Source: Rhodoblastus sphagnicola (lineage in GTDB: Bacteria > Pseudomonadota > Alphaproteobacteria > Rhizobiales > Beijerinckiaceae). Taken from it: DNA of 64,000 nucleotides. A program made the position numbers and the translations under genes. The notes under the pieces are model-generated. The model was not told where the DNA came from. It did no database searches and saw only the letters and a program-made list of their open reading frames with translations. The stretch spans positions 1 through 64,000 of the forward strand of contig NZ_NHSJ01000129.1 in NCBI RefSeq assembly GCF_002937075.1, written 5' to 3'. Shown here one piece after another: positions 45,056-64,000 of the stretch (its first letter is position 1; each line of letters opens with the position of its first letter).

Positions 45056-46258
45056 TCACACTTTCTCCAGAGCCAGCGCGATGCCCTGCCCGACCCCGAT
45101 GCACATGGTCGCCAGCGCCCGCTTTTCGCCGCGCGCCAAAAGCTCCATCGCCGCCGTCAGGGCGAGCCGGGCGCCGGACATGCCGAGCGGATGGCCGATG
45201 GCGATGGCGCCGCCATTCGGATTGACGAATTCCGCGTCATCCGCGATGCCCAGCCCACGCAGGCAGGCCAAGGCCTGCGCGGCGAAAGCCTCGTTCAATT
45301 CGATCACGCCGAAATCGCCGATCTTCAGCCCCAGCCGCGCCATCAGTTTTTGCGTCGCCGGGATCGGCCCTAGACCCATCAGGCGCGGCGCGACGCCGGC
45401 CGTGGCAAGGCCTGATATCCGCGCCATCGGGTTCAGTCCGTAAAGCGCGACAGCTTCGCCGGAGGCGACGATCAAAGCCGCCGCGCCATCATTGACGCCC
45501 GAGGCATTGCCCGCCGTCACCGATCCGCCCTTGCGAAACGGCGTCGGCAAAGCCGCGAGTTTTTCGAGCGTGGTCGCGCGGGGATGTTCGTCCTTTTCGA
45601 CCAGGGTGATATTGCCCTTGCGATCAGAAATCTCGACCGCGACGATCTCGCGCGCGAGCCGGCCGCTCGCCTGCGCTTTCGCCGCGCGCGCCTGACTGCG
45701 GCAGGCGAATGCGTCCTGATCCGCGCGTAAAATGTTGAATTCGGCGGCGACGTTTTCCGCCGTCTCCGGCATGGACTCGATGCCGTATTGCGCCTTGATC
45801 AGCGGATTCACAAACCGCCAGCCGATGGTGGTGTCGAAAATTTCCGCCTTGCGTGAAAAGGCTTCCTCCGCCTTGCCGTAGACAAACGGCGCGCGCGACA
45901 TGGATTCGACCCCGCCCGCCAGCACGACCTCGGCCTCGCCCGCCCGAATGGCGCGCGCCGCCGCGCCGATGGCGTCGAGACCGGAGCCGCACAAACGATT
46001 GATGGTCGCGCCGGGAATTTCAGGCGGCAGACCGGCCAGCAGGAGCGCCATGCGCGCGACATTGCGATTGTCCTCGCCGGCCTGATTGGCGCAGCCGGCG
46101 TAAAAATCGTCAATGCTTTCCGCCGGCAGACCGGGCGCCCGCGCCAGCACGGCGCGCAAAACATGGGCGAGCATGTCGTCGGGCCGCGCGCACGAAAGCG
46201 CCCCGCCATAACGTCCCACCGGCGTGCGCAAGCCCTCGCAGAGATAGGCGTCCTTCAT
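45056..46258 (-). CDS. Acyl-CoA thiolase (3-oxopimelyl/3-oxoadipyl-CoA type)
   Basis: Cleaves a 3-oxoacyl-CoA with CoA; 400 residues. The nucleophile is Cys90 in NRLCGSGLDAIG. The other catalytic blocks are GGAIAIGHPLGMSGAR (His) and CIGVGQG (Cys). It resembles PcaF/FadA-like degradative thiolases. It follows the fadJ-like gene with an ATGA overlap and lies in the had operon. The expected reaction is 3-oxopimelyl-CoA to glutaryl-CoA plus acetyl-CoA. ATG 46258 fits homology and overlap; the frame extends upstream without homology. Confidence 0.9.
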   Translation of the reverse strand: MKDAYLCEGLRTPVGRYGGALSCARPDDMLAHVLRAVLARAPGLPAESIDDFYAGCANQAGEDNRNVARMALLLAGLPPEIPGATINRLCGSGLDAIGAAARAIRAGEAEVVLAGGVESMSRAPFVYGKAEEAFSRKAEIFDTTIGWRFVNPLIKAQYGIESMPETAENVAAEFNILRADQDAFACRSQARAAKAQASGRLAREIVAVEISDRKGNITLVEKDEHPRATTLEKLAALPTPFRKGGSVTAGNASGVNDGAAALIVASGEAVALYGLNPMARISGLATAGVAPRLMGLGPIPATQKLMARLGLKIGDFGVIELNEAFAAQALACLRGLGIADDAEFVNPNGGAIAIGHPLGMSGARLALTAAMELLARGEKRALATMCIGVGQGIALALEKV

Positions 46259-48393
46259 CGCAACGACTCCACCAGCGAGTTTTTGGGCGCGGCCTCGCCG
46301 GGCGCGAGTTCGCCAAACGTCCCGCCGGAATCGGCGAGTTGCTGGATCAAGGCCGCCGGTTCGTATGCGGGACCGGCGAACGCGCGCAAAGCCTCGATAT
46401 CGGCGAGAATGCACTCAAGGCCGATGGCGTCGGCCTCGAACATCGGCCCGCCGCGCCAGGCGGGATAACCGTAGCCGTGGACGAGAACCATATCCACGTC
46501 GAGCGCGCGCCCGACGATCCCCTCCGACAGGATTTTGGCGCCTTCGTTGATCATGGCGGCGCGCACCAGACGCTGGATATCCTCGGCCGGACTCGTCTTG
46601 CGCGCGAAACCTTTTTCAGCGGAAACTTTTTCCACGAGTTCGCTCACCACCGGATCAATCGTGCGCTTGCCGTCGGGATAGACGTACCAGCCGGCCCCCG
46701 TTTTTTGGCCGAACCGCCCGAGATCGCAGAGCCGATCGGCGACGGTCGAGGCATAACGTTCATTCGGATCGCGCGTCGCGGCGAGACGCTTGCGCCGCGC
46801 CCAGGCGATATCGAGGCCGGCAAGATCGGACACCGCGAACGGCCCCATGGCGAATCCGTAAGCTTCAAGCGCGCCGTCTACGTCCTGTGGCAGCGCGCCG
46901 GCCTCCAGAAACATTTCCGCCACCGGCCGCCACACCGCCAACATGCGATTGCCGACAAAGCCATCGCACACGCCGCAGACCACAGGCAGTTTTTTCAGCC
47001 TTTTCGCGACCGCCACGCCGGTCGCAACCGCGTCCGCAGAACTCCGGCCGCCTTCGACAACCTCGACCAACCGCATGACATGGGCTGGCGAGAAGAAATG
47101 CAGCCCGATCACATCGGCGGCCCGGCCGCTGAACGCGGCGATCGCGTTGACGTCGAGCGCGGAGGTGTTGGTGGCGAGAACGGCGCCCGGCCTGGCGAGC
47201 GCGCCAAGGCGCGAAAAAATGTCCTGCTTCACGGCCATGTCCTCGAAGGCCGCCTCGATAATCAGATCGCAATCCGCCAGCGCGGAAAAATCCGCGCTCA
47301 CATATGCGCGCGCCCGCTTCTGATCGAACTGCGCCTGCGTGAGCTTGCCCGATTTAAGCGGACGCGCCCAAAGCCCTTCAATTCTCTGAACGCCCGCATC
47401 GACCGCCGCCGCGCTGGTCTCGACCACGCGGACGTCATAGCCGCCATCCACAAGCGCGACGGCGATCCCCGCGCCCATCGTCCCGGCGCCGATCACGCCG
47501 ACCTTTTCCACGGGACGAGGCGCGACGCCTTCGAGCCGCGCCACCCGCGCGACTTCGCGCTCGGCGGCGAAGACGTAGCGCAGCGCCCTGGACTGGTCGC
47601 TCCGCATCAGCTCGAAAAAAGTTTTGCGCTCGCGCGCGATGCCCTCGGCGAAGGGAAGCGCTGAGGCCGCCGCAACCAAGCCGGCGGCGACTCCCGGCGC
47701 GATCTGCCCCCGCGCCTTTTTGTCCACCTGCGCGCGCGCGGCGGCGAAGGCGACTTGGTCGCAAGCCGGAACCTCCAGTCGCCCGGCGCGACGCAAATCC
47801 TTGCCGATCAGTTTTCGCGCCTGCGCGCGCGCGGCCTCAAACACATCGCCGGAAACGACGACATCGACGAGGCCGAGCGACAGGGCTTCTTGCGCCTTGA
47901 CCTGGCGCCCGCTGGCGACAAGATCGAGCGCGGGCAGCATCCCGACGAGACGCGGCAAACGCTGGGTTCCGCCCGCGCCGGGGACGAGGCCGAGCTTGAC
48001 TTCGGGCAGCCCGACCAAAGCGTCGGCCGCCATGACCCGCGCATGGCAGGCCAGAGCGGTCTCAAGACCGCCGCCGAGCGCGGTTCCGTGGATCGCCGCG
48101 ACGAGCGGTTTGCCGCTGTCCTCAATGGCCTGCAACACGTCGGGCAAGTGGGGCAAAAGCGGCGGCTTGCCGAATTCCCGAATATCGCCGCCGGCGATAA
48201 AAGTCTTGCCGGCGCAGCCGATGACGCCAGCCTTGACAGCGGGATCGGCGTTGATCTTTTCGACCGCGTCGAGAAGCCCCTGCCGCACCGCCTGCGACGT
48301 GGCGTTCACCGGCGGATTGTCGATGATGACGAGCGCAATCTCGTCGTGTCGTCGGATGGAAACGGACAAAGAAAACTCCCTGGCTCCGTTCAC
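46255..48393 (-). CDS. Bifunctional enoyl-CoA hydratase/3-hydroxyacyl-CoA dehydrogenase (FadJ-like)
   Basis: A 712-residue beta-oxidation fusion. The N-terminal hydratase (about 1-190) keeps both glutamates ([25 protein letters not shown]). The C-terminal 3-hydroxyacyl-CoA dehydrogenase (about 290-690) has [13 protein letters not shown] for NAD and [15 protein letters not shown]. Between had and a thiolase it should oxidise 3-hydroxypimelyl-CoA, the product of Oah, and process shorter dicarboxyl-CoAs. The GTG start at 48393 overlaps the had stop (GTGA). It resembles PimF of the R. palustris pimelate operon; true substrate chain length is not visible. Confidence 0.9.
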
Positions 48394-49460
48394 GGCACCA
48401 GAACGGCGCGGCGTTTCAACTGGTGTGAATGCGCCTCGGCGAAAACGGCGTTGATGTCCGCGAGCGGCCGCCGTTCGACAAAGGCGCCGAGTTCGATCTT
48501 GCCGTCGAGCACCAGATCGAGCGCGCCGGGATAAAGCTCCGGAGGACAGCCCCAGTTGCCGATGGCGCGCGCGTCAAACGCCATCAGGTTGGAGAGGCGC
48601 ACCTCGACACGATCCATGGTGAAGCCGACGATGCAGAGCGTCGCGCCGAAGGTGAGCAGCCCGAAAGCGGTGGTCTGGCCAATGGCGGTCCCCGAGCACT
48701 CGAAAATGATCCACTCGGTCAGCGGCAGGTTTTGCGCCTTGCAATAGTCGGAAATCTTCGCCTTCAGGCTTTTCTGGTCGTGATCCCGCGCGTTGAGGGT
48801 CAGCGCGGCGCCATACTGGCCGATCAGCGCGAGCTTGGCGTCATCGACGTCGATCGCGATCACGGTCGCGCCGAAGGCCTTGGCGATCTGCGCGGCATAG
48901 CCGCCGACGCCGCCGACGCCGACGACGATCGCCACCGACCCCGGCTTGACCTCCGCGCGCACGACAGCCTGATAGGGCGTGGTCACGGCGTCCGCGACCA
49001 CGCTGACGTCGGCGAGCGTGAGACCCGCCTTGGCGAGCCGCGTCTCATCCACCGGGCACAGGCCGCGCGCGGGTACGACGATATGCGTGCCAAAACCGCC
49101 GTGGATATCGTTGCCCGGCATTTTCTGCTTGCGGCAGATGTTGGGGCGGCCGCGCTTGCATTGCTCGCATTCCCCGCAAGGCAGAACGGCGGGAATGATC
49201 ACGGCGCGGCCGATCCAGGATTCGGCTCCGGCGCCGGCGGCGACGACGCGGCCCGAGATTTCATGGCCCAGCGCCAGCGGCAGCGGCTGGTTGGTGCGCA
49301 CGCCATCGTAGAGATAGCCGAGATCGGTGTGGCAGACGCCGCAACCGGCGATGGCGACGACAACCTCTCCGGCGTCAGGCGTCGCCAAGAAACCTTCCTG
49401 CACCATGGGCGCGCCGACCGCGGTCATCAGCCAGCGACGTGCGGAAATCTGTTCGTTCAT
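48390..49460 (-). CDS. had: 6-Hydroxycyclohex-1-ene-1-carbonyl-CoA dehydrogenase
   Basis: Zinc alcohol dehydrogenase, 356 residues, oxidising 6-hydroxycyclohex-1-ene-1-carbonyl-CoA to the 6-oxo compound with NAD. The catalytic zinc site is [14 protein letters not shown] with GHEISGRV, the structural zinc loop is [15 protein letters not shown], and the nucleotide motif is [13 protein letters not shown]. The sequence resembles Thauera Had more than generic dehydrogenases, and Dch and Oah, the enzymes before and after it, are encoded at 62-64 kb. ATG 49460 follows GGGGAGCG. Its promoter carries a 28-bp operator. Confidence 0.87.
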
Positions 49461-49500
49461 CTGCGCTCCCCTTGGTGTTCTTACCTTGGTTTTCTTATTT

Positions 49501-49535
49501 AATGGCAATCTAGTAATAAAATACCAATTTGCAAG
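49501..49535 (-). promoter_or_regulatory. had promoter with 28-bp operator (site A)
   Basis: On the minus strand CTTGCA (49530-49535) and TAGATT (49507-49512) are 17 bases apart. A 28-bp motif at 49501-49528 begins ATTGGTAT, has TAC in the centre and ends CCATT. It fills the promoter core. It matches site C at 53902-53929 at 19 of 28 positions without gaps. Confidence 0.6.
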
Positions 49536-49565
49536 CGCGAAATTCAGCGCGAGCGCAACCGCGCC

Positions 49566-50018
49566 TCAGCCGCCGCTGGCGGCGCGGCCGACGACAGCCT
49601 TCACCTCCGGGTCCCGCTTCTGCTTCTCGTTGATTTTCAGCAAGGTGGTGATCGAAACCGCGCGCAACGACGCCAGGGCGATGTCGTCGATCTCGCGCAA
49701 AACCTTGTGCAGCGTGCGCCCCTCGACATGATCGACCGGCGGCGCGGGTTCGGCGTCGGGGCCGACCTCTTCAAACAGCTGGATGATGTCGAGCAGCGTG
49801 ACGCGCTTGGGATTGCCGCAGAAGCGATAGCCCCCGCCAGCGCCGCGCACGGACTCGACCAGCCGCGCGCGGACCAGGGTTCGCAGCACTTTCGCCAGAT
49901 GATTGAGCGAGATTTCGTACTTTGACGCGATTTCGGCGGCCGAAATCTGTTGATCGCGATGGGTGGCGAGTTCAAGCACCGCGTAGAGTCCACACATTGT
50001 GGCTTTCTGAAGCTTCAT
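49566..50018 (-). CDS. Rrf2 family repressor (BadM-like)
   Basis: A 150-residue Rrf2-type winged-helix regulator: MKLQKATMCGLYAVLELATH, then IASKYEISLNHLAKVLRTLV and the wing VRGAGGGYRFC. The three clustered cysteines that hold an iron-sulfur cluster in IscR and NsrR are missing after residue 85, so it probably senses a metabolite. In R. palustris the Rrf2 protein BadM represses the benzoyl-CoA reductase operon. This gene sits directly upstream of had, whose promoter carries site A, making it a first candidate for that operator. Confidence 0.87.
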   Translation of the reverse strand: MKLQKATMCGLYAVLELATHRDQQISAAEIASKYEISLNHLAKVLRTLVRARLVESVRGAGGGYRFCGNPKRVTLLDIIQLFEEVGPDAEPAPPVDHVEGRTLHKVLREIDDIALASLRAVSITTLLKINEKQKRDPEVKAVVGRAASGG

Positions 50019-50084
50019 CGCCTTCGATCATCCCAAAGCTGGCGCCTGTTTTTTGTGATGACGCCGAATCAAACGGCCAAAACC

Positions 50085-50564
50085 TTAATCCAGTTCCTTC
50101 TCCAACTGAATAAGCGGCCCTGTCATCATCCCCAGGCTGCGAAAGAACGCGAGCACCAGATCATTGTCGCGATCCACCATCGTCCGCACCTTCTCGACGC
50201 CGGCGCTGCTAAACCTTTCGCACAGAGCTTCGAACAGCCGCGTCCCCACATTATTGACGCGAATGTCCTGATCGACATTCAGCGCGAACACCCAGCCGCA
50301 GCGTTCCGCCCCGAATTCAAACGCCCTGATCTCGCCGGCGATGAACCCGACCAAACGCCCCTGCTGCTCCGCCACGAGAAAAGCGCGGCCCTCGCCGGGC
50401 GTCTGCGCGAAATGGGCGAACAACTCCCGCCAGTAGCAGCATTTTGAATGTCCCGTCGCGCGTTCGTCGAGCATGACGATGAATGGAACGTCCTCGAACG
50501 CCGCCGAGCGAATTTTTATATCGGCGGCCGGCATCGCCTGCGCCGTCTTGATCGAACTGGTCAT
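50085..50564 (-). CDS. GNAT family acetyltransferase (BadL-like position)
   Basis: A 159-residue acetyltransferase. The acetyl-CoA region reads FALNVDQDIRVNNVGTRLFE, with a weakened pyrophosphate loop (RVNNVG) instead of the usual Q/R-x-x-G-x-G. It lies 66 bases upstream of the Rrf2 gene on the same strand. In R. palustris the GNAT BadL adjoins badM. A role in acetylating aminobenzoates or the nearby CoA ligase is conceivable, but the substrate is not visible. ATG 50564 follows GGGAGGGGGA. Confidence 0.82.
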   Translation of the reverse strand: MTSSIKTAQAMPAADIKIRSAAFEDVPFIVMLDERATGHSKCCYWRELFAHFAQTPGEGRAFLVAEQQGRLVGFIAGEIRAFEFGAERCGWVFALNVDQDIRVNNVGTRLFEALCERFSSAGVEKVRTMVDRDNDLVLAFFRSLGMMTGPLIQLEKELD

Positions 50565-50720
50565 TCCCCCTCCCGCCTCGTTGTTGTTGCAGCGTCAGCT
50601 TGCTGACTTTCGGCGACAGTCTTGTCTGAAGGCCGGGCGGATGCAAGCGGCGCGTTGGGCTAACGCGAAACCCGACAGGACAATCGGGTGAATTAAGAGA
50701 AGGCGCGCGCGGTCGTGTTC

Positions 50721-50856
50721 CCTTCTCCCCTTGCGGGAGAAGGTGGCCCCGAAGGGGTCGGATGAGGGGTTCAAACGCAAGAACAAAGGCGTTTTTCTCC
50801 GGCAGGCGCCCCCTCATCCGGCGCTTCGCGCCACCTTCTCCCGCAAGGGGAGAAGG
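50721..50856. repeat. Dispersed palindromic repeats, family 2 (inverted pair)
   Basis: CCTTCTCCCCTTGCGGGAGA at 50721 leads to GGATGAGGGG at about 50769. The reverse-order copy runs from CCCCTCATCCG (about 50810) to CTTCTCCCGCAAGGGGAGAA (50835-50854). Together they can fold into one large cruciform or hairpin. Confidence 0.8.
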
Positions 50857-50921
50857 GGTTCCCGGCCTGACTGCGACCATACTCATTCATCCGATTGCCC
50901 TGGGAAACCCGACCTGGATCA

Positions 50922-50975
50922 TTGACAAGTTCAACGGGCGCTCCTTAAAGTTATAGTGGTAAAACTATACCAAAA
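50922..50975 (+). promoter_or_regulatory. Promoter of CoA ligase 2 with 28-bp operator (site B)
   Basis: TTGACA (50922-50927) and TTAAAG (50945-50950) are 17 bases apart. The operator-like block at 50948-50975, on the minus strand, contains TTGGTATAGT then TACCA. It begins in the -10 element and covers the likely start point, a repressor position. Confidence 0.6.
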
Positions 50976-51027
50976 TACATTATTGCGCAAGGACGGCCCC
51001 AGACCGCCCCGCAGCGAGGATAAGCCG

Positions 51028-52608
51028 ATGGAGCCGAACGAGATTCAGATCGACCGCGCACAGACCCCCGTGCGTCTTTCCTACGCCGAAAATTTCAATG
51101 TCGCGGTTCCCTTCATCGACCGTCATCCAAGGGAAGGTCGGGGGGAAAAGATCGCGATCCATGCCCGCGCGGGCGACGTCACCTATGCCGAACTCGCCGC
51201 CAACGTGAACCGCGCCGCCTCCGGGTTCACGGCGCTGGGCCTGAGGCCGGGCGACAGGCTGCTGATGATCATAAAGGATTGTCCCGCCTTTTTTTACACG
51301 TTCTGGGGCGCGATCAAGGCCGGTGTCATTCCCGTTCCGCTCAACACGCTGTTGCGCTCCGACACTTACGCCTTCGTCATCGAAAATTCCGCCGCCACCG
51401 CTTTTTTCTACTCGCCGGAATTTTCCGCCGAGGTCGAGCGCGCGCTCGAACTCTCCGCGCACAAGCCAAGCCATGTCCTGCCGACGGAGGGCGCGAACAG
51501 CCTTGACGCCGTTCTGGCGCAAGCGTCCGACACGTTCGAAGCCGTCCCCTCCACGCCGGACAGCGATTGCTTCTGGCTGTATTCCTCGGGTTCGACCGGC
51601 CGACCCAAGGGCGCGGTGCATCGCCAGCGCGACATGGTGGCGACCAGCGTGCTTTATGGCGTTGAAGTCCTCGGCATCCGCGAAGACGACATCTGCTATT
51701 CCGAGGCCAAACTGTTTTTCGCCTATGGCATCGGCAACGCGCTCACCTTTCCGCTCTGGGTCGGCGCCACCAGCGTTCTCAACGAGTCAAAACCCGGGCC
51801 GGACACCAGCTTCCCGCTGATCGCGCGCCACCGGCCGACGCTCTATTACGGCGTGCCCACGCTCTATGCCGCCTATCTCGCCCTGTTCGACAAACAAAAG
51901 CCCGACCTGTCCTCGATCCGCGCCTGCGTCTCGGCCGGCGAGGCGCTGCCGCCGGACATTTATCAACGCTGGAAGGCGGCGACCGGCCTCGACATTCTCG
52001 ACGGCATCGGCTCCACCGAAGCGTTGCACATTTTCATCAGCAACCGCCACGGCGCGGCGCGACCGGGCTCCAGCGGCCTGCCCGTGCCGGGCTATGGCGC
52101 GCGGATCGTCGATGACGCGGGCGACGACATTCTGGGCGCGGGCGAAGGGCGCCTGTTCATCTCCGGCCCCTCGCTGGCGCGCTGCTACTGGAACAATCCC
52201 GAAAAAACCGCCGCGACCATGGTGGGAGACTGGTTCGACACCGGCGACACCTATCGCCGCGACGACGAGGGGTTTTACTATTACTGCGGGCGCACAGACG
52301 ACATGATGAAGGTCGGGGGCATCTGGTGTTCCGCCTTCGACATCGAATCAAAATTGATCGAACATCCGGCCGTGCTGGAGGCGGCGGTCGTCGGCAAGGC
52401 CGATGCGGAAAGCCTGATCAAACCGGCGGCCTATGTCGTTCTACAAGCAGGCCGCGAAGGCGATGCCGCCCTGACGGCCGAGCTGATGCAGTTCTGCAAG
52501 AGCCGACTGGCGCCCTATCAATATCCGCGCTGGATCCGCTTCGTTCCCGAACTGCCGAAAACCGCGACCGGAAAAATTCAGCGTTTTCGTCTGCGCGCCG
52601 AAGCCTGA
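51028..52608 (+). CDS. Benzoate-CoA ligase family protein (copy 2)
   Basis: A 526-residue ATP-dependent aryl-CoA ligase. Motifs are LYSSGSTGRPKGAVH, SEAKLFFAYGIGNALTFP, GIGSTEALH, GRTDDMMKVGGIW and PKTATGKIQR with the catalytic Lys. The GIGNALTFP block resembles BadA-type benzoate-CoA ligases. ATG 51028 follows GCGAGGA; an in-frame GTG at 50956 lies inside the operator and is rejected. Flanked by two GNAT genes. Benzoate is the likely substrate, with hydroxylated benzoates possible. It would feed the bcr pathway directly. Confidence 0.88.
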   Translation: MEPNEIQIDRAQTPVRLSYAENFNVAVPFIDRHPREGRGEKIAIHARAGDVTYAELAANVNRAASGFTALGLRPGDRLLMIIKDCPAFFYTFWGAIKAGVIPVPLNTLLRSDTYAFVIENSAATAFFYSPEFSAEVERALELSAHKPSHVLPTEGANSLDAVLAQASDTFEAVPSTPDSDCFWLYSSGSTGRPKGAVHRQRDMVATSVLYGVEVLGIREDDICYSEAKLFFAYGIGNALTFPLWVGATSVLNESKPGPDTSFPLIARHRPTLYYGVPTLYAAYLALFDKQKPDLSSIRACVSAGEALPPDIYQRWKAATGLDILDGIGSTEALHIFISNRHGAARPGSSGLPVPGYGARIVDDAGDDILGAGEGRLFISGPSLARCYWNNPEKTAATMVGDWFDTGDTYRRDDEGFYYYCGRTDDMMKVGGIWCSAFDIESKLIEHPAVLEAAVVGKADAESLIKPAAYVVLQAGREGDAALTAELMQFCKSRLAPYQYPRWIRFVPELPKTATGKIQRFRLRAEA

Positions 52609-52616
52609 CGAACGAA

Positions 52617-52646
52617 AGCGCGTTCGACGCCGACGCCGAACGCGCT
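52617..52646 (+). terminator. Hairpin after CoA ligase 2
   Basis: AGCGCGTTCG (52617-52626) and CGAACGCGCT (52637-52646) form a perfect 10-bp stem with a ten-base loop, eight bases past the stop. There is no U-tract. Confidence 0.5.
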
Positions 52647-52740
52647 GCAAAAACGCGCCTCCTGGAGGCTTAGGCAACGAAGCGAAATAGCCGCTTCAAT
52701 TCCGGCGCCAGATAAGCGCCACGAATCGCCAGCGCGCTTT

Positions 52741-52792
52741 CCTTCTCCCCTTGCGGGAGAAGGTGTCGCGCGCAAGCGCGACGGATGAGGGG
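52741..52792. repeat. Dispersed palindromic repeat, family 2
   Basis: CCTTCTCCCCTTGCGGGAGA, a small hairpin (TCGCGCGCAAGCGCGA), then GGATGAGGGG. Same organisation as 50721-50770. It lies between convergent genes. Confidence 0.8.
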
Positions 52793-52838
52793 TTCGTCCC
52801 TTGCAACGCGGACGATTCACTTATTTTGCCACGTCGCA

Positions 52839-53798
52839 CTAGAGCGCCAGGGTCAAACTCAAGCGTTGCGAAGGCCGAAAGCCCTGGCGCCTCAAAAATC
52901 CGAGCAGTTCGAACTCATCCCATTTCACTTCGGTGCGCACGCGCTCGACGCGCAAAACCTGCAAATTGGCGAGCAATTGCTTCATCAAGGCGCTTCCCGT
53001 GCGCTTCCCCGCAAAATCCGGGTGAACGCCCAGCGTGTCCATCACCGCTTCCGTCGCGGTTTCGCCGAATTCGCCATAATCCACGCGCGCCATGATGAAG
53101 CCGACTTGCACGCCGTCGGATTCGGCGATCATCGACATGCGGACGCCGCTGTCGCGCAACGATTCCCGAACCATGCGCTCGTAATAGCGCGTGCGGTCGC
53201 GGCCGGTCACGCGCCGGTCGATCCCGATGATGGTGGCGAGGTCGTCGCGCACGAGGGAGCGCACCGGGATTTCATCGCGCCAGGAGTCATCCCCGTCCCA
53301 CGCGTCGTCCCCGTCCGGCCTGTCCGTCTCGGCGTCGCGTTCGAGCACGAGTCGGTGGCCGAGCACAAAACCCGCGGCGGCAAAGAAATGCGCCAGCCGC
53401 CGATCGGTCCACGGCGCCTGCGTGCGGATTTCGGTCGCGCCCTGCGCGCGGGCGTGGGCCTTTAACTCGTCCAGCAGCGCGCGCGCGCCGCCATGCCCGC
53501 GCACGGTTTCGCTGGTGGCGACCGCATCGAGCACGGCGACGGGCGCCGAGCCGCCAAACTCGCCATCGAGAATTTGCGCCAGGACAAAACCTTCGAGCAC
53601 GCCGTTCTCGATATAGCCGAGCGAAATGAACCCTTGCGCGTCGCGGACGCTGGCTTGCAGGCGGTTCTCAAAAAAGCCCCGCCGCGATTGGCCGATGATG
53701 GCGCGATCGATCTGGGTGATCCGATCGAGGTCCGCCGGCGTGAGAACCCGGATGGTTTTGGACCGAGCGTCGGACGGTTTTTCAATGACTTCGCTCAT
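52839..53798 (-). CDS. Tandem-domain GNAT acetyltransferase
   Basis: A 319-residue protein built of two GNAT domains: about 15-150 (LDAVATSETVRGHGGARALL) and 175-319 (MDTLGVHPDFAGKRTGSALM). An acidic linker (ETDRPDGDDAWDGDDSW) separates them. Only the first keeps a near-canonical acetyl-CoA loop (RGHGGA); the second reads AGKRTG. It is convergent with the benzoate-CoA ligase gene. R. palustris has GNAT enzymes that acetylate and switch off aryl-CoA ligases, so control of the ligase lysine is an attractive hypothesis. Site C lies upstream of the gene. Confidence 0.85.
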   Translation of the reverse strand: MSEVIEKPSDARSKTIRVLTPADLDRITQIDRAIIGQSRRGFFENRLQASVRDAQGFISLGYIENGVLEGFVLAQILDGEFGGSAPVAVLDAVATSETVRGHGGARALLDELKAHARAQGATEIRTQAPWTDRRLAHFFAAAGFVLGHRLVLERDAETDRPDGDDAWDGDDSWRDEIPVRSLVRDDLATIIGIDRRVTGRDRTRYYERMVRESLRDSGVRMSMIAESDGVQVGFIMARVDYGEFGETATEAVMDTLGVHPDFAGKRTGSALMKQLLANLQVLRVERVRTEVKWDEFELLGFLRRQGFRPSQRLSLTLAL

Positions 53799-53901
53799 GG
53801 GGTCTCCTCGATTTTAACTTGGGAAAATTTGTCTCCCCGCACCCATGCGCGGATCGGTCAACGCTCGTTGCGCAAAGGCCAAGCCAGGCGCCGAGAGTCC
53901 A

Positions 53902-53929
53902 ATTGGTATAGTCATACGATATTACCATT
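53902..53929. promoter_or_regulatory. 28-bp operator (site C)
   Basis: Begins ATTGGTATAGT, has TAC in the middle and ends TTACCATT; an imperfect dyad (TGGTA and TACCA halves). It lies between the divergent tandem-GNAT and hydrolase genes, 103 bases from the GNAT start and 115 from the hydrolase start. It matches site A strongly and site B over TTGGTATAGT. Confidence 0.6.
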
Positions 53930-53986
53930 ATCAGGGACTGCGCAAGCGATTTCGCGCGCCCTCGCCGCAACCGCGCGTCCGAAATA

Positions 53987-54044: not shown

Positions 54045-54854
54045 ATGCGCCGAATTGACTGGGCCGCGGGTCGCGGAATTTTCGAGAGTGACGGCAAGGG
54101 CCTGGAATGGCGGCGCTGGGGGCCGCCGCCCGGCGACGCGCCGACGATTGCGCTGCTGCATGAAGGCCTCGGCTGCGTGGCGCTGTGGCGCGATTTTCCC
54201 GCCCGCCTCGCCGAGGCCACCGGCCTTGGCGTGTTCGCTTGGTCCCGCGCCGGCTATGGCCAATCCGACCCGGCGGACCTGCCCCGGCCGCTCGATTATC
54301 TCTCGCGCGAAGCCAAAATCCTGCCGCGCGCGCTCGACGCGCTCGGCGCCCGAGAAATCATTCTGTTCGGCCATTCCGACGGCGCCACCATCGCCGCAAT
54401 CCACGCCGGCGCGCATCACGATCCGCGCCTGCGCGGCCTGATCCTGATGGCGCCGCATTTCTTCACCGAATCCATGGGGCTGGCCGAAATCGCCAAGGCG
54501 AAAACCGCCTTCGACACCACCGATCTCAAACACCGGATGGCGCAACATCACAGGGACGCGGAAGCGACGTTTCGCGGCTGGAACGACGCCTGGCTCGCGC
54601 CCGGCTTCGCGCGCTGGAACGTGGCGGAGGTTATCGAACACTGGCGCGTCCCGGTTCTCGCGATCCAGGGCCTTCAGGACCAGTACGGCACGCTGGCGCA
54701 AATCCGCGAGATCGAGCGCCGGTCGCGCGCGCCCGTCACGCTGGCGCTGATCGACGCCTGCCGCCATGCGCCGCACCTCGAACAGCCCGACAGGACGCTC
54801 GCGGCCGTGGCTGACTTCATCGCCGGATTACAACAAGTGGAGATCAATGAATGA
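54045..54854 (+). CDS. Alpha/beta hydrolase
   Basis: A 269-residue alpha/beta hydrolase. The oxyanion block is LLHEGLGCVALW, the nucleophile elbow GHSDGATIAA and the catalytic His lies in DACRHAPHLEQ; the acid is probably the Asp in GLQDQYG. The fold fits esterases or C-C/thioester hydrolases. First gene of an operon with a thioesterase (ATGA overlap) and a BoxR/BzdR-type regulator, so release of stalled aryl-CoA or cleavage of an ester precursor is possible. The start at 54045 sits very close to the predicted promoter. Confidence 0.8.
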   Translation: MRRIDWAAGRGIFESDGKGLEWRRWGPPPGDAPTIALLHEGLGCVALWRDFPARLAEATGLGVFAWSRAGYGQSDPADLPRPLDYLSREAKILPRALDALGAREIILFGHSDGATIAAIHAGAHHDPRLRGLILMAPHFFTESMGLAEIAKAKTAFDTTDLKHRMAQHHRDAEATFRGWNDAWLAPGFARWNVAEVIEHWRVPVLAIQGLQDQYGTLAQIREIERRSRAPVTLALIDACRHAPHLEQPDRTLAAVADFIAGLQQVEINE

Positions 54855-55270
54855 CGGAATTCGAGCACCAGATTCGCGTGGGCTGGGGCGATTGCGACCC
54901 CGCCAGGATCGTCTATACCGGCCGCGTGCCGGCCTTCGCGCTCGAGTCCATCGAAGCCTGGTGGGAGCATCACACCGGCGGCGGCTGGTTCCATATGGAG
55001 CTGGACCGCAACATCGGCACGCCCTTTGTCAGCATCGCCATGACCATGCGCTCCCCGATCACGCCGCGCCACCGCCTGATCTGCCGGGTGTGGCCGACCA
55101 AGCTCGGCGAGACCTCGATCGGCTTCCACGTCGAAGGCTTTCAGAATGGCGTGCTGTGTTTCGAGGGCGATTTCGTCTGCGTGTTCGTCGCGGTCGATCA
55201 GTTCAAGAAGACGCGTCCGCCCGAGGAAATCCGCACCCTCGTCCTGTCAAAGATACGGCCGGCGCGATGA
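54851..55270 (+). CDS. Hotdog-fold acyl-CoA thioesterase (4-hydroxybenzoyl-CoA thioesterase family)
   Basis: A 139-residue single-hotdog thioesterase. The family motif is VGWGDCDPARIVYTGRVPAF, with Asp16 as predicted catalytic residue. Length fits the 4-hydroxybenzoyl-CoA thioesterase group. It overlaps the hydrolase stop and the regulator start by four bases each. In benzoyl-CoA pathways such enzymes hydrolyse unproductive aryl-CoA esters and free trapped CoA. The exact thioester is not determined by sequence. Confidence 0.87.
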   Translation: MTEFEHQIRVGWGDCDPARIVYTGRVPAFALESIEAWWEHHTGGGWFHMELDRNIGTPFVSIAMTMRSPITPRHRLICRVWPTKLGETSIGFHVEGFQNGVLCFEGDFVCVFVAVDQFKKTRPPEEIRTLVLSKIRPAR

Positions 55271-56127
55271 CCAAGCCGGACGCGGTCGCCGAACTGATGG
55301 CGCGCGTCGGCGAGCGCGTGCGCAAGGCGCGCGAGCGACGCGGCGTGTCCCGTAAAACCCTGTCTGAAATATCCGGCGTGTCGCCGCGCTATCTCGCGCA
55401 ACTGGAGGCGGGCGACGGCAATATTTCCATCGGCCTGCTCCAGCGCGTGGCGCTGGCGCTCGACCAAAAAATCGACGCGCTGGTGGGAGACGAAGACCCC
55501 TGGACCTCGCAGGTTTTGCGGGTCGCCGCCCTGTTTCGCGCCGCGCCAACCGATCTGCGTAAAACCGTGCTGGAGCTCTTGACGACAGTCGAGCGCCCCC
55601 GCGCCAAACGCATCTGCCTGATCGGCCTGCGCGGGGCGGGAAAATCGACGCTCGGCCGCATGGCCGGCGCGGCGCTGAAAATCCCCTTTGTCGAACTCAA
55701 TCGCACAATCGAGGATTTGGCCGGAATTCCCGTGGCGGACGTGATGGCGCTCTATGGCCCCGAGGGTTTTCGCACGCTGGAGGCCCAGGCGCTCCAACGG
55801 ATCATCGCGCTGCACGACACGGTGATCGTCGCGGTCGCCGGCGGCGTGGTCGGGGAGCCCGAGACGTACAAAAACCTGCTCGCGCATTTTCACAGCGTCT
55901 GGATCACGGCGGCGCCCGGCGAATACATGCCCCGCCTGCGCGCCCAGGGCGACCTGCGTCCGATGGCGGGCAATCCCGAGGCGATGCGGCAGTTGGAGGC
56001 GATCCTGGCGAGCCGGACGCCGCTTTACCAGCAGGCGCAAGCCACGGTGGACACCACCGGAAAAACGCCGGAAATCTCGCTCGCCGATCTCTTGCAAACC
56101 ATCGCGCGAGAGAAATTTCTGGACTGA
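55267..56127 (+). CDS. BoxR/BzdR-type regulator (XRE domain fused to shikimate-kinase-like domain)
   Basis: A 286-residue regulator of aryl-CoA catabolism. The N-terminal XRE helix-turn-helix covers about 13-70 (RKTLSEISGVSPRYLAQLEA). A linker leads to a shikimate-kinase-like domain from about 112, with Walker A GLRGAGKST (120-128). This architecture defines BzdR (anaerobic) and BoxR (aerobic) repressors, which sense benzoyl-CoA through the kinase-like domain. ATG 55267 overlaps the thioesterase stop. It faces the bcr operon end. No boxABC genes are present, so a BzdR-like role is more likely. Confidence 0.92.
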   Translation: MTKPDAVAELMARVGERVRKARERRGVSRKTLSEISGVSPRYLAQLEAGDGNISIGLLQRVALALDQKIDALVGDEDPWTSQVLRVAALFRAAPTDLRKTVLELLTTVERPRAKRICLIGLRGAGKSTLGRMAGAALKIPFVELNRTIEDLAGIPVADVMALYGPEGFRTLEAQALQRIIALHDTVIVAVAGGVVGEPETYKNLLAHFHSVWITAAPGEYMPRLRAQGDLRPMAGNPEAMRQLEAILASRTPLYQQAQATVDTTGKTPEISLADLLQTIAREKFLD

Positions 56128-57391: not shown

Positions 57392-58231
57392 TCACGCCGC
57401 GCGTTTCGCGCCGAGGTTTTTGAGTTTTTCATGCCGGAACGCGCCCCACAGCGCGGCCCCGACGGCGCCGGCGTAGATGGCGTCACTGTGCGAAGCGATG
57501 GGAACCGACACCTTCTCGCGCGCCATCGCCTCCTTCATCGCCTCGACCAGGCCATCGTCGAGCGCGAGACCGCCGGTCATCTGGATGACGCCCTCAAGGC
57601 CGCCAATCGTCTTCAGCAATTTGGCGAGGCGGTCCGCCATCGAAGAGTGAATGCCTTTAAGGATGTTGGAGGCGGTGATGCCGCGCGACACCATGTTGAT
57701 GACGTCGGTCTCGGCCAGCACGGCGCAAATGCCCGAGACCTTTTCGGGATTGTCCGCCTGTTTTGACAGCGCGCCGATTTCGTCCTGGGCGATACCGAGA
57801 TAGCGCGCGATATTTTCCAGAAACTGGCCGGAGCCGGAGGCGCATTGGCTGGTCATCTTGTAGTTCAAGACTTTGCCATGCGCGTCGATGCGAATGGCGC
57901 GGCCGTGCAGGGCGCCGCAATCGAGCACGGCGCGGGCCTCCGGCTGGAGATAGATGGCGCCGCGCGCATGCGTGGTCATGGAATAGAAGTGACCGGTGTG
58001 GAACGGGATGGATTCGCCATCGCCGGTGGTGGCGCAATAAGCCACGTCCTTGCGCGAAAAACCGGCTTCGCCGAGCAGATCGTCGTAAACGCCGGCGGCG
58101 AGCGCGAGCGGATCGCGCTGGCGCAGACGTTCGCAGCGCCACGAAATCAGCTTTTCATCGGCGCCGTCCACGTCGAACAGCGCGACTTTGACGGCGCCGG
58201 CGCCGATATCAATTCCAGCGGTGATGGTCAT
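57392..58231 (-). CDS. bcrD: Benzoyl-CoA reductase subunit D (ATPase)
   Basis: One of two ASKHA-fold ATPase subunits that drive electrons onto the aromatic ring (BadG in R. palustris); 279 residues. The phosphate loops are AGIDIGAGAVKVALFD and CGALHGRAIRI, and the cluster-bridging cysteine region is TSQCASGSGQFLENIARYLG with a second Cys in GICAVLAETDVIN. These hold the [4Fe-4S] cluster shared with BcrA. Spacing to bcrA is 11 bases. The gene order C-B-A-D is that of class I, ATP-dependent reductases. Confidence 0.95.
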   Translation of the reverse strand: MTITAGIDIGAGAVKVALFDVDGADEKLISWRCERLRQRDPLALAAGVYDDLLGEAGFSRKDVAYCATTGDGESIPFHTGHFYSMTTHARGAIYLQPEARAVLDCGALHGRAIRIDAHGKVLNYKMTSQCASGSGQFLENIARYLGIAQDEIGALSKQADNPEKVSGICAVLAETDVINMVSRGITASNILKGIHSSMADRLAKLLKTIGGLEGVIQMTGGLALDDGLVEAMKEAMAREKVSVPIASHSDAIYAGAVGAALWGAFRHEKLKNLGAKRAA

Positions 58232-58242
58232 GAAAAGCTCCT

Positions 58243-59556
58243 TCAGGCGTCAACCGCGCGTCGCGCGAATTCGGCGGCGCCGAGCGCGCCGGTGTAGATG
58301 GAATCCGGGTTGATGTTGATGACGACGTCGCCGTAATTCTCCTTGATGAGCTGGCGCAACTCGCGCACGGCGGCATCGTTCTTGGCGACGCCGCCGGTGA
58401 AGGTGAACTCGTCGGTGACGCCGCCCGAGCGCGAGATGATCGACATGGCGCGCAGCATGATGGCGCGATGCAGACCGGCCAGAATGTCCTCGCGTTTTTC
58501 GCCAAGGGAAAGGCGGTCGCGCAATTCGGCGCCGGCGAACACGGTGCAGGTCGAGTTGATGCGCGCCGGCTTGTTCGATTGCATGGCGAGCGGCCCGAGT
58601 TCGTGCAGGCCCATGTTCATTTCGTCGGCGATATAGCCGAGATAGCGCCCGCAACCCGCCGCGCAGCGGTCGTTCATCTGGAAATTCTCGACGATGCCGC
58701 TTGCGTCGACCTGAATGCCCTTGGTGTCCTGCCCGCCAATATCCAGCACCGTGCGGGTCTTGGGATACATCATATGCGCGCCGAGGCCGTGGCACAGGAT
58801 TTCCGAGCGGATGTGTTCCTTCGAGAACGGCAGGGTGACGCGGCCATAGCCGGTGCCGACCAAATAGGTTTCGGCAAGCTCGATGCCAAGGCTGCCCTCA
58901 ATCGCCGTCGTCAGGCTCGCCGCGTCGCCGGAGAGCGCCTTGGTGTCGCCGAGCACGCGGGCCATGGCGCGGCGGAACTTGTCGTCGAGATCGCCCGACG
59001 GCGGGCGGTTCTCGACATCGATGATCGACTTGTCATAGGCGTTGAGCAGCATGTCATGGCCAACGCCCGCCTCTTTCGCAATCGCTTCGGCATGGACATG
59101 AAAGCGCGAACCGGCGATATCGCGAAAGAAATCCGACTTGCGCTTGGCGCCCGGCGCGTAAAGCTCGGGCGCCTCCTTGCGCAGGCGCAGGAAAATTTCG
59201 CCCAGCGCTTCGCGCAGGCTGTCGCCGACCTTGGCGAAACGCTCCGCCTTCAACTGGTCGATGCAGGTGACTTCGAGATCGGTCAGTTGCTCGAGAAATT
59301 GCTCCAGGCGAAAACCGCGTTCGAGCGCGGCCAAAAACTCGTCGAAACGATGCGCCCCGCCGTCGAGATCGGTCAGCGCGCGGCGGAACAGAGTGAAGCG
59401 GCCGTCAACGCGCGCCTCCTCGCTGGCCACGCGCGCGGCCGTGGCGTAATTGGAGCGGGAATTGGTGATCCCGCGCCCTAAAACATGCTGGTTTTCGTCG
59501 AGCAACACCGCCTTGGTGGTGGTGGAGCCAAGGTCGATTCCAATGAATGTGCGCAT
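58243..59556 (-). CDS. bcrA: Benzoyl-CoA reductase subunit A (ATPase)
   Basis: Larger ATPase subunit (BadF in R. palustris), 437 residues. It opens [20 protein letters not shown], the ASKHA phosphate-1 loop. An insertion of about 150 residues relative to BcrD follows, then [15 protein letters not shown] and the cluster motif [14 protein letters not shown], with a second Cys in [13 protein letters not shown] hydrolysis here lowers the redox potential of the electron sent to BcrBC. It is nine bases from bcrB. All expected cysteines are present. Confidence 0.95.
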
Positions 59557-59565
59557 ATTGGCTCC

Positions 59566-60876
59566 TTACGCGGCGGCGGATGACGACCGTTTCTGCTCGA
59601 TCATCTGGAAATAGGATTCGAGACGGTTTTTCACGTTGGCCGCCGAGAAATAGCGGGGGTCCACCAGATCGGTTTCGATGAAGGCGGCGGGTTTTCCCGT
59701 GCGCTTCTCCACCTCGCGCATCATCAACAATTGGCCGGCGGAAAAACTGTTGCAGCTCTTGATCGAATTGATCAGCAGCCCGTCCGCCTCATATTCGTTG
59801 ATATAATTGGCGAGCATGTCCACGCGCATCGGCAGGTTGCGGTTGGTGTAGACATTCAGGCAATATTCCGCGAGCGATTCCAGCGGGTTGTCGGCATCGT
59901 GGCGGAAACCATAATCATAGGTGCCGCCGACCTTGGTGTAGCTCGACGCCACCACCACCGCGCCTTCGTCATAGAACATTTTCCAGAACTGGCGGAAGTG
60001 CGTGTAGTTCGGCGGCCCCTCGACGACGAGCCGATATTTCTCGCGGGGCATGTCGCCATCGGGCGTCACCGGCCCCTTGCCGAGGCGAATGCGTTCTTCC
60101 ACTTCCTCGCGTAAAAACTTGTAATATTCGATGGCGTCGTCGGTGCCGCGGAAGGCGCCAAAGATAGGGCCGACATAATAGATGCCGCCGAAATAGGCGT
60201 CGATCGGCGACGGCTTGTTTTTGGCGCTTTGCAGCACCCAGAGGTGATCGTCCTCCGCCTTGGCCGAGCGGCGCAGATTTTCGCGCAAGCGGTCAATGTC
60301 GAATTTCACGCCGGAGACGCGCTCCAGCGTCGGGATCACGTCCTGCTTGAGTTGCTTGACCATATACTGGATCATCTCGGGCGTGATCTTGCCATCTCCG
60401 AGATAGGGCGTGTGCAGCATGACGGTTTCGCACTTGTACTGCTCGCGCAGCAGCTCGAACCATTTCATGAAGGTGAAGCAACCGGTGTAGGACAGCAGCA
60501 GCACGTCGGGGTCGGGCATGCGGCGCCCGTTTGGCCCGATATTGCCCTTGGCCATCATGCCGATGTCGGATTTCACATAGGTGCAGACATCCTCGGAATG
60601 GCCGATCTTTTCGGATTCCAGCACATAGGGTCCGCTCTGCTTGCGCAGGCCCGATTGAATGGCGTTCACTTCAGGCAGGTTGTTGACCATATCGAAACAC
60701 ATGATCAGTTCGTTGAGATTGCCGGGCACGAAAGTCGCGCACACCTTCTCGCCGCTTTGCGGCGCGTCGGACAGGCGGTCGTAATGGCGCGCCAGCATGT
60801 CCTTCTGCTTGGACATCGACGCGTCGCGAATGATTTCCGCCGGGGCGGAATTGGGTCGAATGATCGTCGTGCTCAT
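59566..60876 (-). CDS. bcrB: Benzoyl-CoA reductase subunit B
   Basis: Together with BcrC this subunit binds benzoyl-CoA and carries [4Fe-4S] clusters at the ring-reduction site (BadE in R. palustris). The 436-residue protein belongs to the HgdB/BcrB family, with Cys in EKVCATFVPGN, LSYTGCFTFMKW and INSIKSCNSFSAG. ATG 60876 overlaps the bcrC stop in an ATGA; a longer frame upstream has no homology. Length agrees with Thauera and R. palustris counterparts. Confidence 0.95.
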   Translation of the reverse strand: MSTTIIRPNSAPAEIIRDASMSKQKDMLARHYDRLSDAPQSGEKVCATFVPGNLNELIMCFDMVNNLPEVNAIQSGLRKQSGPYVLESEKIGHSEDVCTYVKSDIGMMAKGNIGPNGRRMPDPDVLLLSYTGCFTFMKWFELLREQYKCETVMLHTPYLGDGKITPEMIQYMVKQLKQDVIPTLERVSGVKFDIDRLRENLRRSAKAEDDHLWVLQSAKNKPSPIDAYFGGIYYVGPIFGAFRGTDDAIEYYKFLREEVEERIRLGKGPVTPDGDMPREKYRLVVEGPPNYTHFRQFWKMFYDEGAVVVASSYTKVGGTYDYGFRHDADNPLESLAEYCLNVYTNRNLPMRVDMLANYINEYEADGLLINSIKSCNSFSAGQLLMMREVEKRTGKPAAFIETDLVDPRYFSAANVKNRLESYFQMIEQKRSSSAAA

Positions 60877-62057
60877 TGTCCGCTCCACAGTTTGATGGAA
60901 TCCGCAAAGGTGCCGGCCTGCTCGCGCACCGGCTGCATCTGTCCGGTGTTTTCGGCGTATTTGAAGCCGATATAGGGAATGTTGGCGGCCTTGAGCGCCG
61001 CCTGCAGCATGGGGCGATCCAGCAACGCCGGATCGCAAAAGCTGGGCATGGCGAAGATCACGCCCTCGGCGCCATTTTCGCGCACGCTGTCAACGAGATA
61101 CTTGCCCTTGAGCGCGACGTTCGGCTCGTATTTCGGCGCGATCGACTTGGAATCATTTATGTAGGCGCGCGAAAGATTTTCCAGCGGATCGCCTTGCGTG
61201 GCGACCTCGGATTTCTCCCAGCGGTTCACGACGAGAAAATCGTCATCGACGATATAGCAGCCGGCCAGTTCGATGCTCTTGATGAGGTTCAGCGGCGGCT
61301 GCTCGCAGAACACGCCGGACAGCACGATGCGGCTGTTGTCCTTCATCGGCCGGTCGGACTGGCGCGCCAGCCGCATGTAGTCGACGAGCATCGCATTGTG
61401 CTCCTCGACCGGCAGCAGCAGGCCCGCCCGCATCAGCAGATAGACTTCCGACGCGGGCAGGTTCCACGGCATGTCCGCGCGCAGCTGGTACACTTCGCGC
61501 ACGAGGCGCCGGTTCTCGTTGAACAGGGCGATGGAGGCGCGGATATCGTCGTCGGCGATCGGCCTGCCGACAATATGTTCGAGAAACTCACGAAGCTCTT
61601 TCAGCTCCTGCGCGTAAAACGGAACGCCGATGTCGGGCGAAAAATTCTGCGGCAGGTCGAGATAGCGCGCCGGCGTTTGCGGGAACATCAGCTTCCACAT
61701 GCCCGACAGGTTGCGGATCACGTCGCAGATTGACGGGAACAACATGCCATCGACAAAGTCGAGCCGGGCCGAGACGCCCAGTTCTATCGTGGAGCGGGGA
61801 ATGCGGCAGATGTAGCTCTGATAATAGGCGTCGCCGTGGATGACTTCGAGTTGGTCGCCGCCGCCAAGTATGGCGATGGGCAGGCAGCCGGCGGCATGGA
61901 CGAGTTCGCGCGGCGCGTAATAGGGCAGAAAGCCGATGACCTTTCGTCCGGGCTTGGCCGCCTTCCAGGCGCGCTGAGCTTCGAAGTGCAAGTCGGAGAA
62001 CAGCGCCTCGCAGCGCTCAATGATGTGCGCCGTCGTCGGCGTCGCCAGATCGAGCAT
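60873..62057 (-). CDS. bcrC: Benzoyl-CoA reductase subunit C
   Basis: Second subunit of the substrate-reducing half (BadD in R. palustris), 394 residues of the HgdB/BcrC family. Family blocks include GRKVIGFLPYYAPRELVHAA, the conserved Cys in VHAAGCLPIAI, SYICRIPRSTIELG, and LSGVFCEQPP with a conserved Cys. ATG 62057 lies one base after the dch stop; its ribosome-binding site (GGAAGGAT) lies inside dch, so translation is coupled. The product of the complex is cyclohexa-1,5-diene-1-carbonyl-CoA, the substrate of Dch. Confidence 0.95.
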   Translation of the reverse strand: MLDLATPTTAHIIERCEALFSDLHFEAQRAWKAAKPGRKVIGFLPYYAPRELVHAAGCLPIAILGGGDQLEVIHGDAYYQSYICRIPRSTIELGVSARLDFVDGMLFPSICDVIRNLSGMWKLMFPQTPARYLDLPQNFSPDIGVPFYAQELKELREFLEHIVGRPIADDDIRASIALFNENRRLVREVYQLRADMPWNLPASEVYLLMRAGLLLPVEEHNAMLVDYMRLARQSDRPMKDNSRIVLSGVFCEQPPLNLIKSIELAGCYIVDDDFLVVNRWEKSEVATQGDPLENLSRAYINDSKSIAPKYEPNVALKGKYLVDSVRENGAEGVIFAMPSFCDPALLDRPMLQAALKAANIPYIGFKYAENTGQMQPVREQAGTFADSIKLWSGQ

Positions 62058-62058
62058 G

Positions 62059-62826
62059 TTATTGATCCTTCCACCGTGTCTCGCGCTTTTCGATGAAGGC
62101 GGTGAGGCCTTCGACCGCATCGTGCGTTTGCATGAGTTCGTTCAGATAAAGCTCTTCCACCGCCGCCAGTTTTGTCGCGACGCGCGCGGAAAAATCGAGA
62201 CGGGCGGCGCGCGTAGCAAAGCGCAGCGCGTTGGCGCTTTTTCGCGCCAGATGCGCGTCGAAATAGTCCAGCGCCGCCGCTTCGGGATTGTCGCTGAGGC
62301 CGTTGATCAGCCCCATGTCGTAAGCCTCGATGCCCGTGATCGAGCGCCCGGACAGCAGCAAATCCTCGGCCGCCGCCCGCGTGATGCGCTCGGTGAGCAG
62401 GCAGGAGGCGGCGGGCGCGAAAACCCCGAGCGCAATTTCGGGCTGCCCCAGCCGCGTATCCGGCGCCGCGAACAGCAAATGCGCGGCGCTCGCCAGTTCC
62501 AAGCCGCCACCGAGGCATTGCCCGCGCAACGCGACCAGCACCGGAATCGGCGACTTGAGAACGTCGAGGATCAGCGCGTGAAAACCGCCGAGCATGGCGG
62601 CGCATTTTTCGGGTAGATGCTCCTCGACGCTGGCGCCGAAACTGAAATGCGGGCCGGAAGCATCGATCAGCACGCCACGCAGCGAGGCATTGGCGCAATG
62701 CGTTGCGAAAGCGGCCCTGAGCGCGGCGATCATTTCGGCGTCGAGCACATTGGCCTTGGGGCGGTCGAGACGCAGGCGCAGCAGCTTGCCGTCACGCTCG
62801 ATCCAGACGGACAGGGAGCCGCTCAT
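62059..62826 (-). CDS. dch: Cyclohexa-1,5-diene-1-carbonyl-CoA hydratase
   Basis: A 255-residue crotonase-family hydratase that adds water to the dienoyl-CoA made by benzoyl-CoA reductase, giving 6-hydroxycyclohex-1-ene-1-carbonyl-CoA. It has GQCLGGGLELASAAHLLFAA and TRLGQPEIALGVFAP with a glutamate in each; the oxyanion hole is FSFGASVEEH. This is the Dch pattern of Thauera and Magnetospirillum, not R. palustris BadK. It overlaps the oah stop by four bases and precedes bcrC by one. Confidence 0.93.
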   Translation of the reverse strand: MSGSLSVWIERDGKLLRLRLDRPKANVLDAEMIAALRAAFATHCANASLRGVLIDASGPHFSFGASVEEHLPEKCAAMLGGFHALILDVLKSPIPVLVALRGQCLGGGLELASAAHLLFAAPDTRLGQPEIALGVFAPAASCLLTERITRAAAEDLLLSGRSITGIEAYDMGLINGLSDNPEAAALDYFDAHLARKSANALRFATRAARLDFSARVATKLAAVEELYLNELMQTHDAVEGLTAFIEKRETRWKDQ

Positions 62827-63920: not shown

Positions 63921-64000
63921 TGACGTCTCCAAAATCAAAAAGACAAACGGCGCGCAGGGGGGCGTAAAAGGCGTGAGGGCCGGCGTGGCGAAGCGCGGTC

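Follow-up and report, generated by a model that had tools for sequence, protein, structure and literature searches.

The 64,000 nucleotides analysed here, hereafter the window, form the start of a contig of Rhodoblastus sphagnicola (C129:1-64000 of genome G000; 5.09 Mb, 141 contigs). Three related sequences in the window, sites A, B and C, and a fourth, site D, just past its end are very probably operators, within a benzoyl-CoA regulon, of the BadM orthologue encoded at 49566-50018. This conclusion was reached by comparing sequences. The sites, the regulator and its presumed acetyltransferase partner are as follows.

49500..49531, minus strand: site A, predicted operator 5' of had (28-bp look-alike at 49500-49527; model match at 49507-49530).
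50946..50978, minus strand: site B, predicted operator between bcl2 and the badL-badM-like pair (core at 50956-50973; model match at 50951-50978).
53899..53930, plus strand: site C, predicted operator in the gap between GNAT2 and a hydrolase gene; the weakest of the four sites.
C129:64223-64250: site D, predicted operator of oah-dch-bcrC-bcrB-bcrA-bcrD, just past the window end (34.2 bits with the relatives' matrix described below).
49566..50018, minus strand: Rrf2-family regulator, BadM orthologue; 150 aa, with cysteines only at positions 9 and 67.
50085..50564, minus strand: GNAT acetyltransferase, BadL-like (GNAT1); directly upstream of badM on the same strand.

In a single register, the sites read TTGGTATTTTATTACTAGATTGCCATTA (A), TTGGTATAGTTTTACCACTATAACTTTA (B), TTGGTATAGTCATACGATATTACCATTA (C) and TCGGTATTTAAATACTAAATTACCACTG (D). 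Their common core is an imperfect dyad of 18 bp, TTGGTA-N6-TACCAA, that lies inside a 26-bp dyad. An earlier note on this DNA had described A, B and C as three 28-bp look-alikes with identical spacing. All three are present and belong to one family, but the true unit is the 26-bp dyad, which is centred differently. In the coordinates of that note, A (minus strand) and C are identical at 21 of 28 positions rather than the 19 it counted, and B lies 2 bp out of register, with 9 identities to A and 7 to C. Shifted into register at 50946-50973, B matches A at 18 positions and C at 20. The A-C identity of 21 was reached in 1 of 500 shuffles of the promoter regions; the A-B and B-C values fell within the shuffled range (maxima 21 and 21; 200 shuffles each). 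Taken alone, this pairwise likeness is modest and would not convince. As one family, sites A, B and C exceed chance: allowing at most two mismatches, TTGGTA-N6-TACCAA occurred in the 64 kb at exactly A, B and C, against 0.3 occurrences expected from 10 resamplings of a window whose sites A, B and C had themselves supplied the core. On their right, A and C carry an additional half-site, ATTRCCATTA; in A and D this half-site also touches the likely -10. Such a third half-site (ATTACCA-like), 8 bp on, occurs in A, C and D and in the had sites of two relatives' loci, L093 and L022.

Loci carrying Rrf2 homologues were drawn from the order, where 19 of 297 genomes had a match, and from GTDB genomes (best 80 loci). 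In 123 intergenic stretches (28.4 kb) from 14 loci, including the window and the neighbouring piece of the contig, the best 26-bp motif from 60 random starts was the dyad. A matrix trained on 91 stretches that excluded window sequence, the relatives' matrix, had an information content of 27.7 bits and a log-likelihood of 299.6 (best of 120 starts), versus 114-137 in 12 shuffled sets (40 starts each). On C129:1-120000, its top matches were D (34.2 bits), B (30.8), A (22.0) and C (18.6); the next scored 10.1. Its match at A sits 8 bp off the register of the match made there by model R1, a sequence-only model built from 38 non-window sites. In 124 kb, model R1 found D, B (E = 0.0077) and A (E = 0.042). 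In the whole genome at E ≤ 10, it again found D, B and A, all on C129, and nothing else. The genome scan that the earlier note had called for thus placed the motif on C129 and not at many unrelated promoters. In eight relatives the matches to model R1 lay mostly on the contig carrying Rrf2, those elsewhere being at G298:C8, G298:C12, G102:C13 and G030:C12:1650477. The 18-bp core alone was weak genome-wide, with 26 places at up to two mismatches versus 78 for the reversed pattern; C129 accounts for 5 of the 26, including one within an open reading frame (67547). The original 28-bp pattern, scanned at up to three mismatches through 295 genomes of the order, matched 52 of them, many probably by chance; it was too loose and was therefore replaced by the matrix and the model.

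Site D came from the search of the whole genome with the 18-bp core, which placed it at C129:64228-64245, approximately 300 bp 5' of oah. The earlier prediction of a site upstream of oah therefore holds. The gene itself had been placed outside the window; in fact oah (62823-63938; TIGR03200 match) lies within it at the head of dch-bcrCBAD, and only its promoter and site D are outside. Divergent from site D, C129:64392-69660 (4392-9660 of locus L084) carries an AraC-family gene, with HpaA below cut-off, and genes reading like p-cresol methylhydroxylase and aldehyde dehydrogenase.

The assignment to BadM draws on Rhodopseudomonas. According to the excerpted text of PMC6191541, BadM of R. palustris represses badDEFGAB and binds, in gel shifts, a 212-nt fragment spanning -191 to +21 of badD; 2-acetamidobenzoate (10 mM), the product of BadL, releases it, and the 3- and 4-isomers acted less. 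The window Rrf2 protein is 69% identical over 138 aa to the Rrf2 protein beside the bad cluster of Rhodopseudomonas genome G306, 71-73% identical to those of four loci from metagenome-assembled genomes (MAGs) and 67% identical to that of Rhodopseudomonas pseudopalustris. The BadL-like GNAT shares 55% identity over 159 aa with the GNAT next to the Rhodopseudomonas Rrf2. In G304, G305 and G306, the sole site of at least 12 bits in a 12-kb stretch lies 75-76 bp before bcrC/badD, behind a dehydrogenase gene that is badC by position; in R. pseudopalustris, the site lies 73 bp before badD. Overall, the badC-badD gap carried a site of 23.5-30.6 bits in all four Rhodopseudomonas genomes having the Rrf2. 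None of these sites was in the matrix training, and that of R. pseudopalustris is among the 38 of model R1. The badD sites fall inside the -191 to +21 fragment of the BadM gel shifts (PMC6191541, in part). Model matches occurred in 4/4 Rhodopseudomonas genomes with the Rrf2 versus 1/12 without (p = 0.003), one of the four (G300) having supplied sites to the model. The comparative evidence thus supports the earlier choice of the BadM-like Rrf2 protein as the leading candidate for controlling a benzoate regulon. Weaker sites were also seen 5' of a CRP-type regulator gene in L238 (Rhodopseudomonas; 1664-1689, 21.0 bits) and L097 (1916-1941, 26.8 bits); this gene is near hcr genes and is perhaps hbaR by position. 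Homologues of hcrA were left unnamed in the relatives' loci, the reference hcrA being in the wrong frame (6 stops).

The association of motif and regulator extends well beyond these genomes. Among 75 loci outside the matrix training, the available sequence reached 700 bp or more upstream of rrf2 in 71, and 64 of the 71 had a match of at least 14 bits within 950 bp upstream of that gene. By comparison, 200 column-permuted matrices gave a mean of 1.8 loci and a maximum of 10 of the 71, and a control stretch of the same loci gave a match in 2 of 66. In 57 of the 71, the match precedes the GNAT coding match, touching the likely GNAT start in L163. The common feature of these loci is the GNAT-Rrf2 gene pair; 48 of the 75 showed no box and no bcr/had/oah genes. 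In the sample of 297 genomes of the order, matches at E ≤ 0.1 were found in 17/19 genomes with the Rrf2 and in 12/278 without, the latter being no more than chance at that threshold. With four training genomes and a genus mate removed, 12/14 Rrf2 genomes matched.

The relatives' sites stand in front of the following genes: had (L093, L094, L096, L023 and L025), GNAT2 (L093-L096), bcl2/GNAT1 (L023 and L025), an acyl-CoA dehydrogenase gene (L095 by Pfam, L093 and L090 by reading), a hemerythrin-GNAT2 pair (L089, 40.3 bits) and a gene for an ABC-type binding protein (L095). Two further sites, L033 11129-11154 (26.2 bits) and L239 1783-1808 (30.3 bits), precede a molybdopterin oxidoreductase operon and adjoin a small gene reading like a hotdog thioesterase.

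The genes next to the four sites are listed below.

48390..49472, minus strand: had, 6-hydroxycyclohex-1-ene-1-carbonyl-CoA dehydrogenase (TIGR03201, 585.8 bits, cut-off 338.65).
45056..48393, minus strand: genes for hydroxyacyl-CoA dehydrogenase/enoyl-CoA hydratase and thiolase, tightly packed behind had and named from reading translations.
51028..52608, plus strand: bcl2, benzoate-CoA ligase family protein (TIGR02262).
52839..53798, minus strand: GNAT2, a protein containing two GNAT domains; in L093-L096, a site precedes its homologue.
54045..56127, plus strand: alpha/beta hydrolase, thioesterase and BoxR/BzdR-type regulator genes, divergent from GNAT2 across site C.
57392..63938, minus strand: oah-dch-bcrC-bcrB-bcrA-bcrD; oah is a TIGR03200 match, and the dch and bcr names are from reading translations.

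At A and D, the dyad fills the gap between a possible -35 (TTGCAA and TTGCTA, respectively) and a possible -10 (TAGATT and TAAATT), 16-17 bp apart, and L093 has the same layout of dyad, -35 and -10. Site B begins at the -10 of the best bcl2 promoter match, TTGACA-18-TAAAGT (50922-50951), in agreement with the earlier note, which had B starting in the -10 of the ligase promoter. Site C (53903) is 104 bp from the start of GNAT2 and 114 bp from that of the hydrolase gene. The consensus promoter scan returned the bcl2 promoter only (1 found, 1.2 expected) and none at D, so the -35 and -10 elements proposed for A, C and D are tentative. The earlier statement that A covers the -35/-10 region of had holds in that A spans the presumed TTGCAA and TAGATT, with the elements themselves tentatively assigned. 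The positions of the dyad relative to the -35 and -10 at A, D and B fit a repressor that blocks polymerase.

By analogy with R. palustris, the only species for which binding and repression by BadM at badD and its release by acetamidobenzoates are published (PMC6191541, as excerpted), the window protein would bind these sites and be released in the same way. In each of four transcription units, a BadM dimer would occupy the 26-bp dyad that overlaps or adjoins the core promoter, and would block RNA polymerase. Site A would control had and the genes behind it; B, bcl2 and possibly badL-badM; C, the GNAT2 gene and/or the hydrolase-thioesterase-boxR unit; and D, oah-dch-bcrCBAD. Release of BadM would come from an acetylated aromatic acid, in R. 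palustris acetamidobenzoate, produced by the BadL-like GNAT. A second dimer could bind at the third half-site seen in A, C and D and in the had sites of the L093 and L022 loci. Copies of a palindromic, REP-like element of the CCTTCTCCCGCAAGGGGAGAAGG type occur at 50721-50743, 50834-50856, 52741-52763 and 11050-11072. Two of these fall in the stretch from site B to the start of GNAT1, possibly separating badL-badM and its operator.

Several results weigh against assigning the sites to BadM. Except for that of bcl2, the promoter matches are weak. Site C was not reported by model R1 in either the 124 kb or the whole genome, and no site of at least 12 bits was found before badL-badM in three Rhodopseudomonas genomes. 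Seven of the 71 loci have no site. In L135, L137, L151, L157, L160, L165 and L171, the match falls at one fixed place inside the GNAT gene, 322-371 bp before rrf2; here coding constraint is more likely than an operator, and we discounted these matches, of which that of L135 is among the 38 sites of model R1. L139 and L158 are linked to bcr but lack an upstream site; both have sites elsewhere, in L139 before had. Of the 75 loci, 18 are named Thalassospira and so are not independent. Finally, in the order sample the motif tracks bcrC equally well: matches were found in 16/16 genomes with both Rrf2 and bcrC, 1/3 with Rrf2 only, 2/4 with bcrC only and 10/274 with neither. The order sample therefore does not single out the regulator.

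The earlier note had offered MarR and BoxR-type proteins as alternatives, and both appear less likely than BadM. The MarR gene is located as follows.

41961-42494: MarR gene, flanked by 4-hydroxybenzoyl-CoA reductase-like and ligase-like genes; NF053777 is its best family (103 bits against a cut-off of 200).

An 18-bp dyad would suit a MarR dimer. The MarR gene is in the same cluster, and in R. palustris a neighbouring pathway is repressed by BadR, which is of the MarR family (PMC9795900, in part), so the sites might be operators of a protein acting like BadR. We consider this very unlikely. The window protein has no significant similarity (BLASTP E = 0.58) to the MarR protein encoded divergently from badH (TIGR03206) in G306, presumably BadR. 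BadR is reported to bind CAATacATTG in R. palustris and CAA-N4-TTG in Aromatoleum (PMC9795900, in part); sites A-D contain neither CAAT-N2-ATTG nor CAA-N4-TTG, and the window has no copy of CAATNNATTG. Among the predicted genes of the 80 Rrf2 loci, most of which carry the motif, none had MarR as its best match at 38% or above. The L093 genome, a MAG of unstated completeness with three sites, gave no MarR match at E ≤ 1e-10, although the other four relatives searched gave matches of 29-39%. The BadR systems of R. palustris and Aromatoleum sp. CIB resemble the present one in having a repressor and a dyad operator, located at promoters of alicyclic acid degradation, but differ in operator (CAA-N4-TTG), protein family and gene set (PMC9795900, in part).

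That the sites belong to the BoxR/BzdR-type regulator (55234-56127) seems extremely unlikely, even though its gene adjoins site C and a homologue of 44-48% identity is present in five of five relatives. BzdR recognises TGCA-N6-TGCA (PMC6678401, in part), a pattern that is absent from A-D and occurs once in the window, at 35208, and no predicted gene in the 80 Rrf2 loci had BoxR as its best match at 38% or above. BzdR/BoxR of Azoarcus/Aromatoleum likewise controls benzoyl-CoA pathway genes and has a homologue encoded in the window, but it differs in its operator (PMC6678401, in part) and combines an HTH_3 domain with a shikimate-kinase-like domain. The four sites could also be A+T-rich elements alike only because they are promoters, with no common repressor; they overlap or adjoin possible -35/-10 elements, and the A-B and B-C similarities are within the shuffled range. 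Given the 27.7-bit matrix obtained from relatives, the lack of any other match in the genome and the long-range conservation, we regard this as highly improbable.

The BadM orthologue thus remains the favoured regulator. It scores 106.7 bits with TIGR00738, above cut-off, and matches PF02082; the 13 relatives with solved structures, listed by sequence, are all regulators, and most bear the name of the Rrf2 family. IscR, NsrR, CymR and RirA belong to the same fold family, but the window protein is far below all of their equivalog cut-offs. IscR has a three-cysteine cluster set, which the window protein, with only Cys9 and Cys67, does not. The system resembles BadM/BadL of R. palustris in its orthologous regulator, GNAT partner, gene pairing and site before the benzoyl-CoA reductase operon. 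Unlike in R. palustris, four units carry sites here, including the had and oah steps of Thauera-type ring cleavage; R. palustris uses badK/H/I instead of the had/oah route (PMC6191541, Fig. 1 legend). In addition, a site is present here between bcl2 and badL-badM, in contrast to the three Rhodopseudomonas genomes.

The regulator, partner, target operon and mechanism are already known from R. palustris, and the clustering of badL with badM in other proteobacteria has been published (PMC6191541, Fig. 5 legend). The BadM operator sequence, a had/oah regulon and a link to the aerobic box genes were not found in the literature surveyed, which omitted the primary BadM papers; the operator consensus and the box link may be new. 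The box link concerns 18 of the 75 loci, which contain a boxB or boxC homologue (≥40%) within the fetched stretch; all 18 belong to the 57 with an upstream site. Seven of seven proteins checked from four of these loci (L102, L124, L128 and L154) passed the BoxC or BoxB cut-offs. The badL-badM-like pair and operator in these loci suggest BadM-type control of box genes. On balance, we lean towards the view that BadL-BadM and the 26-bp operator form a widespread benzoyl-CoA switch for which acetylated aromatic acids are the shared signal, acting on anaerobic bcr/had/oah in some bacteria and on aerobic boxBC in others. Its range would take in Alphaproteobacteria as well as genomes filed under Myxococcales, Anaeromyxobacter and Burkholderiales.

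These results provide a testable BadM operator consensus, together with a regulon of four units in a genome that has the Thauera-type had/oah route; there, control appears to rest with a BadM-type regulator and not with BzdR. For Rhodospirillales and related groups, the prediction is that the same regulator pair controls the aerobic box pathway. Because a BadM-like protein can be given its targets from sequence alone, the role of BadL's acetylated product as a signal becomes testable in several organisms.

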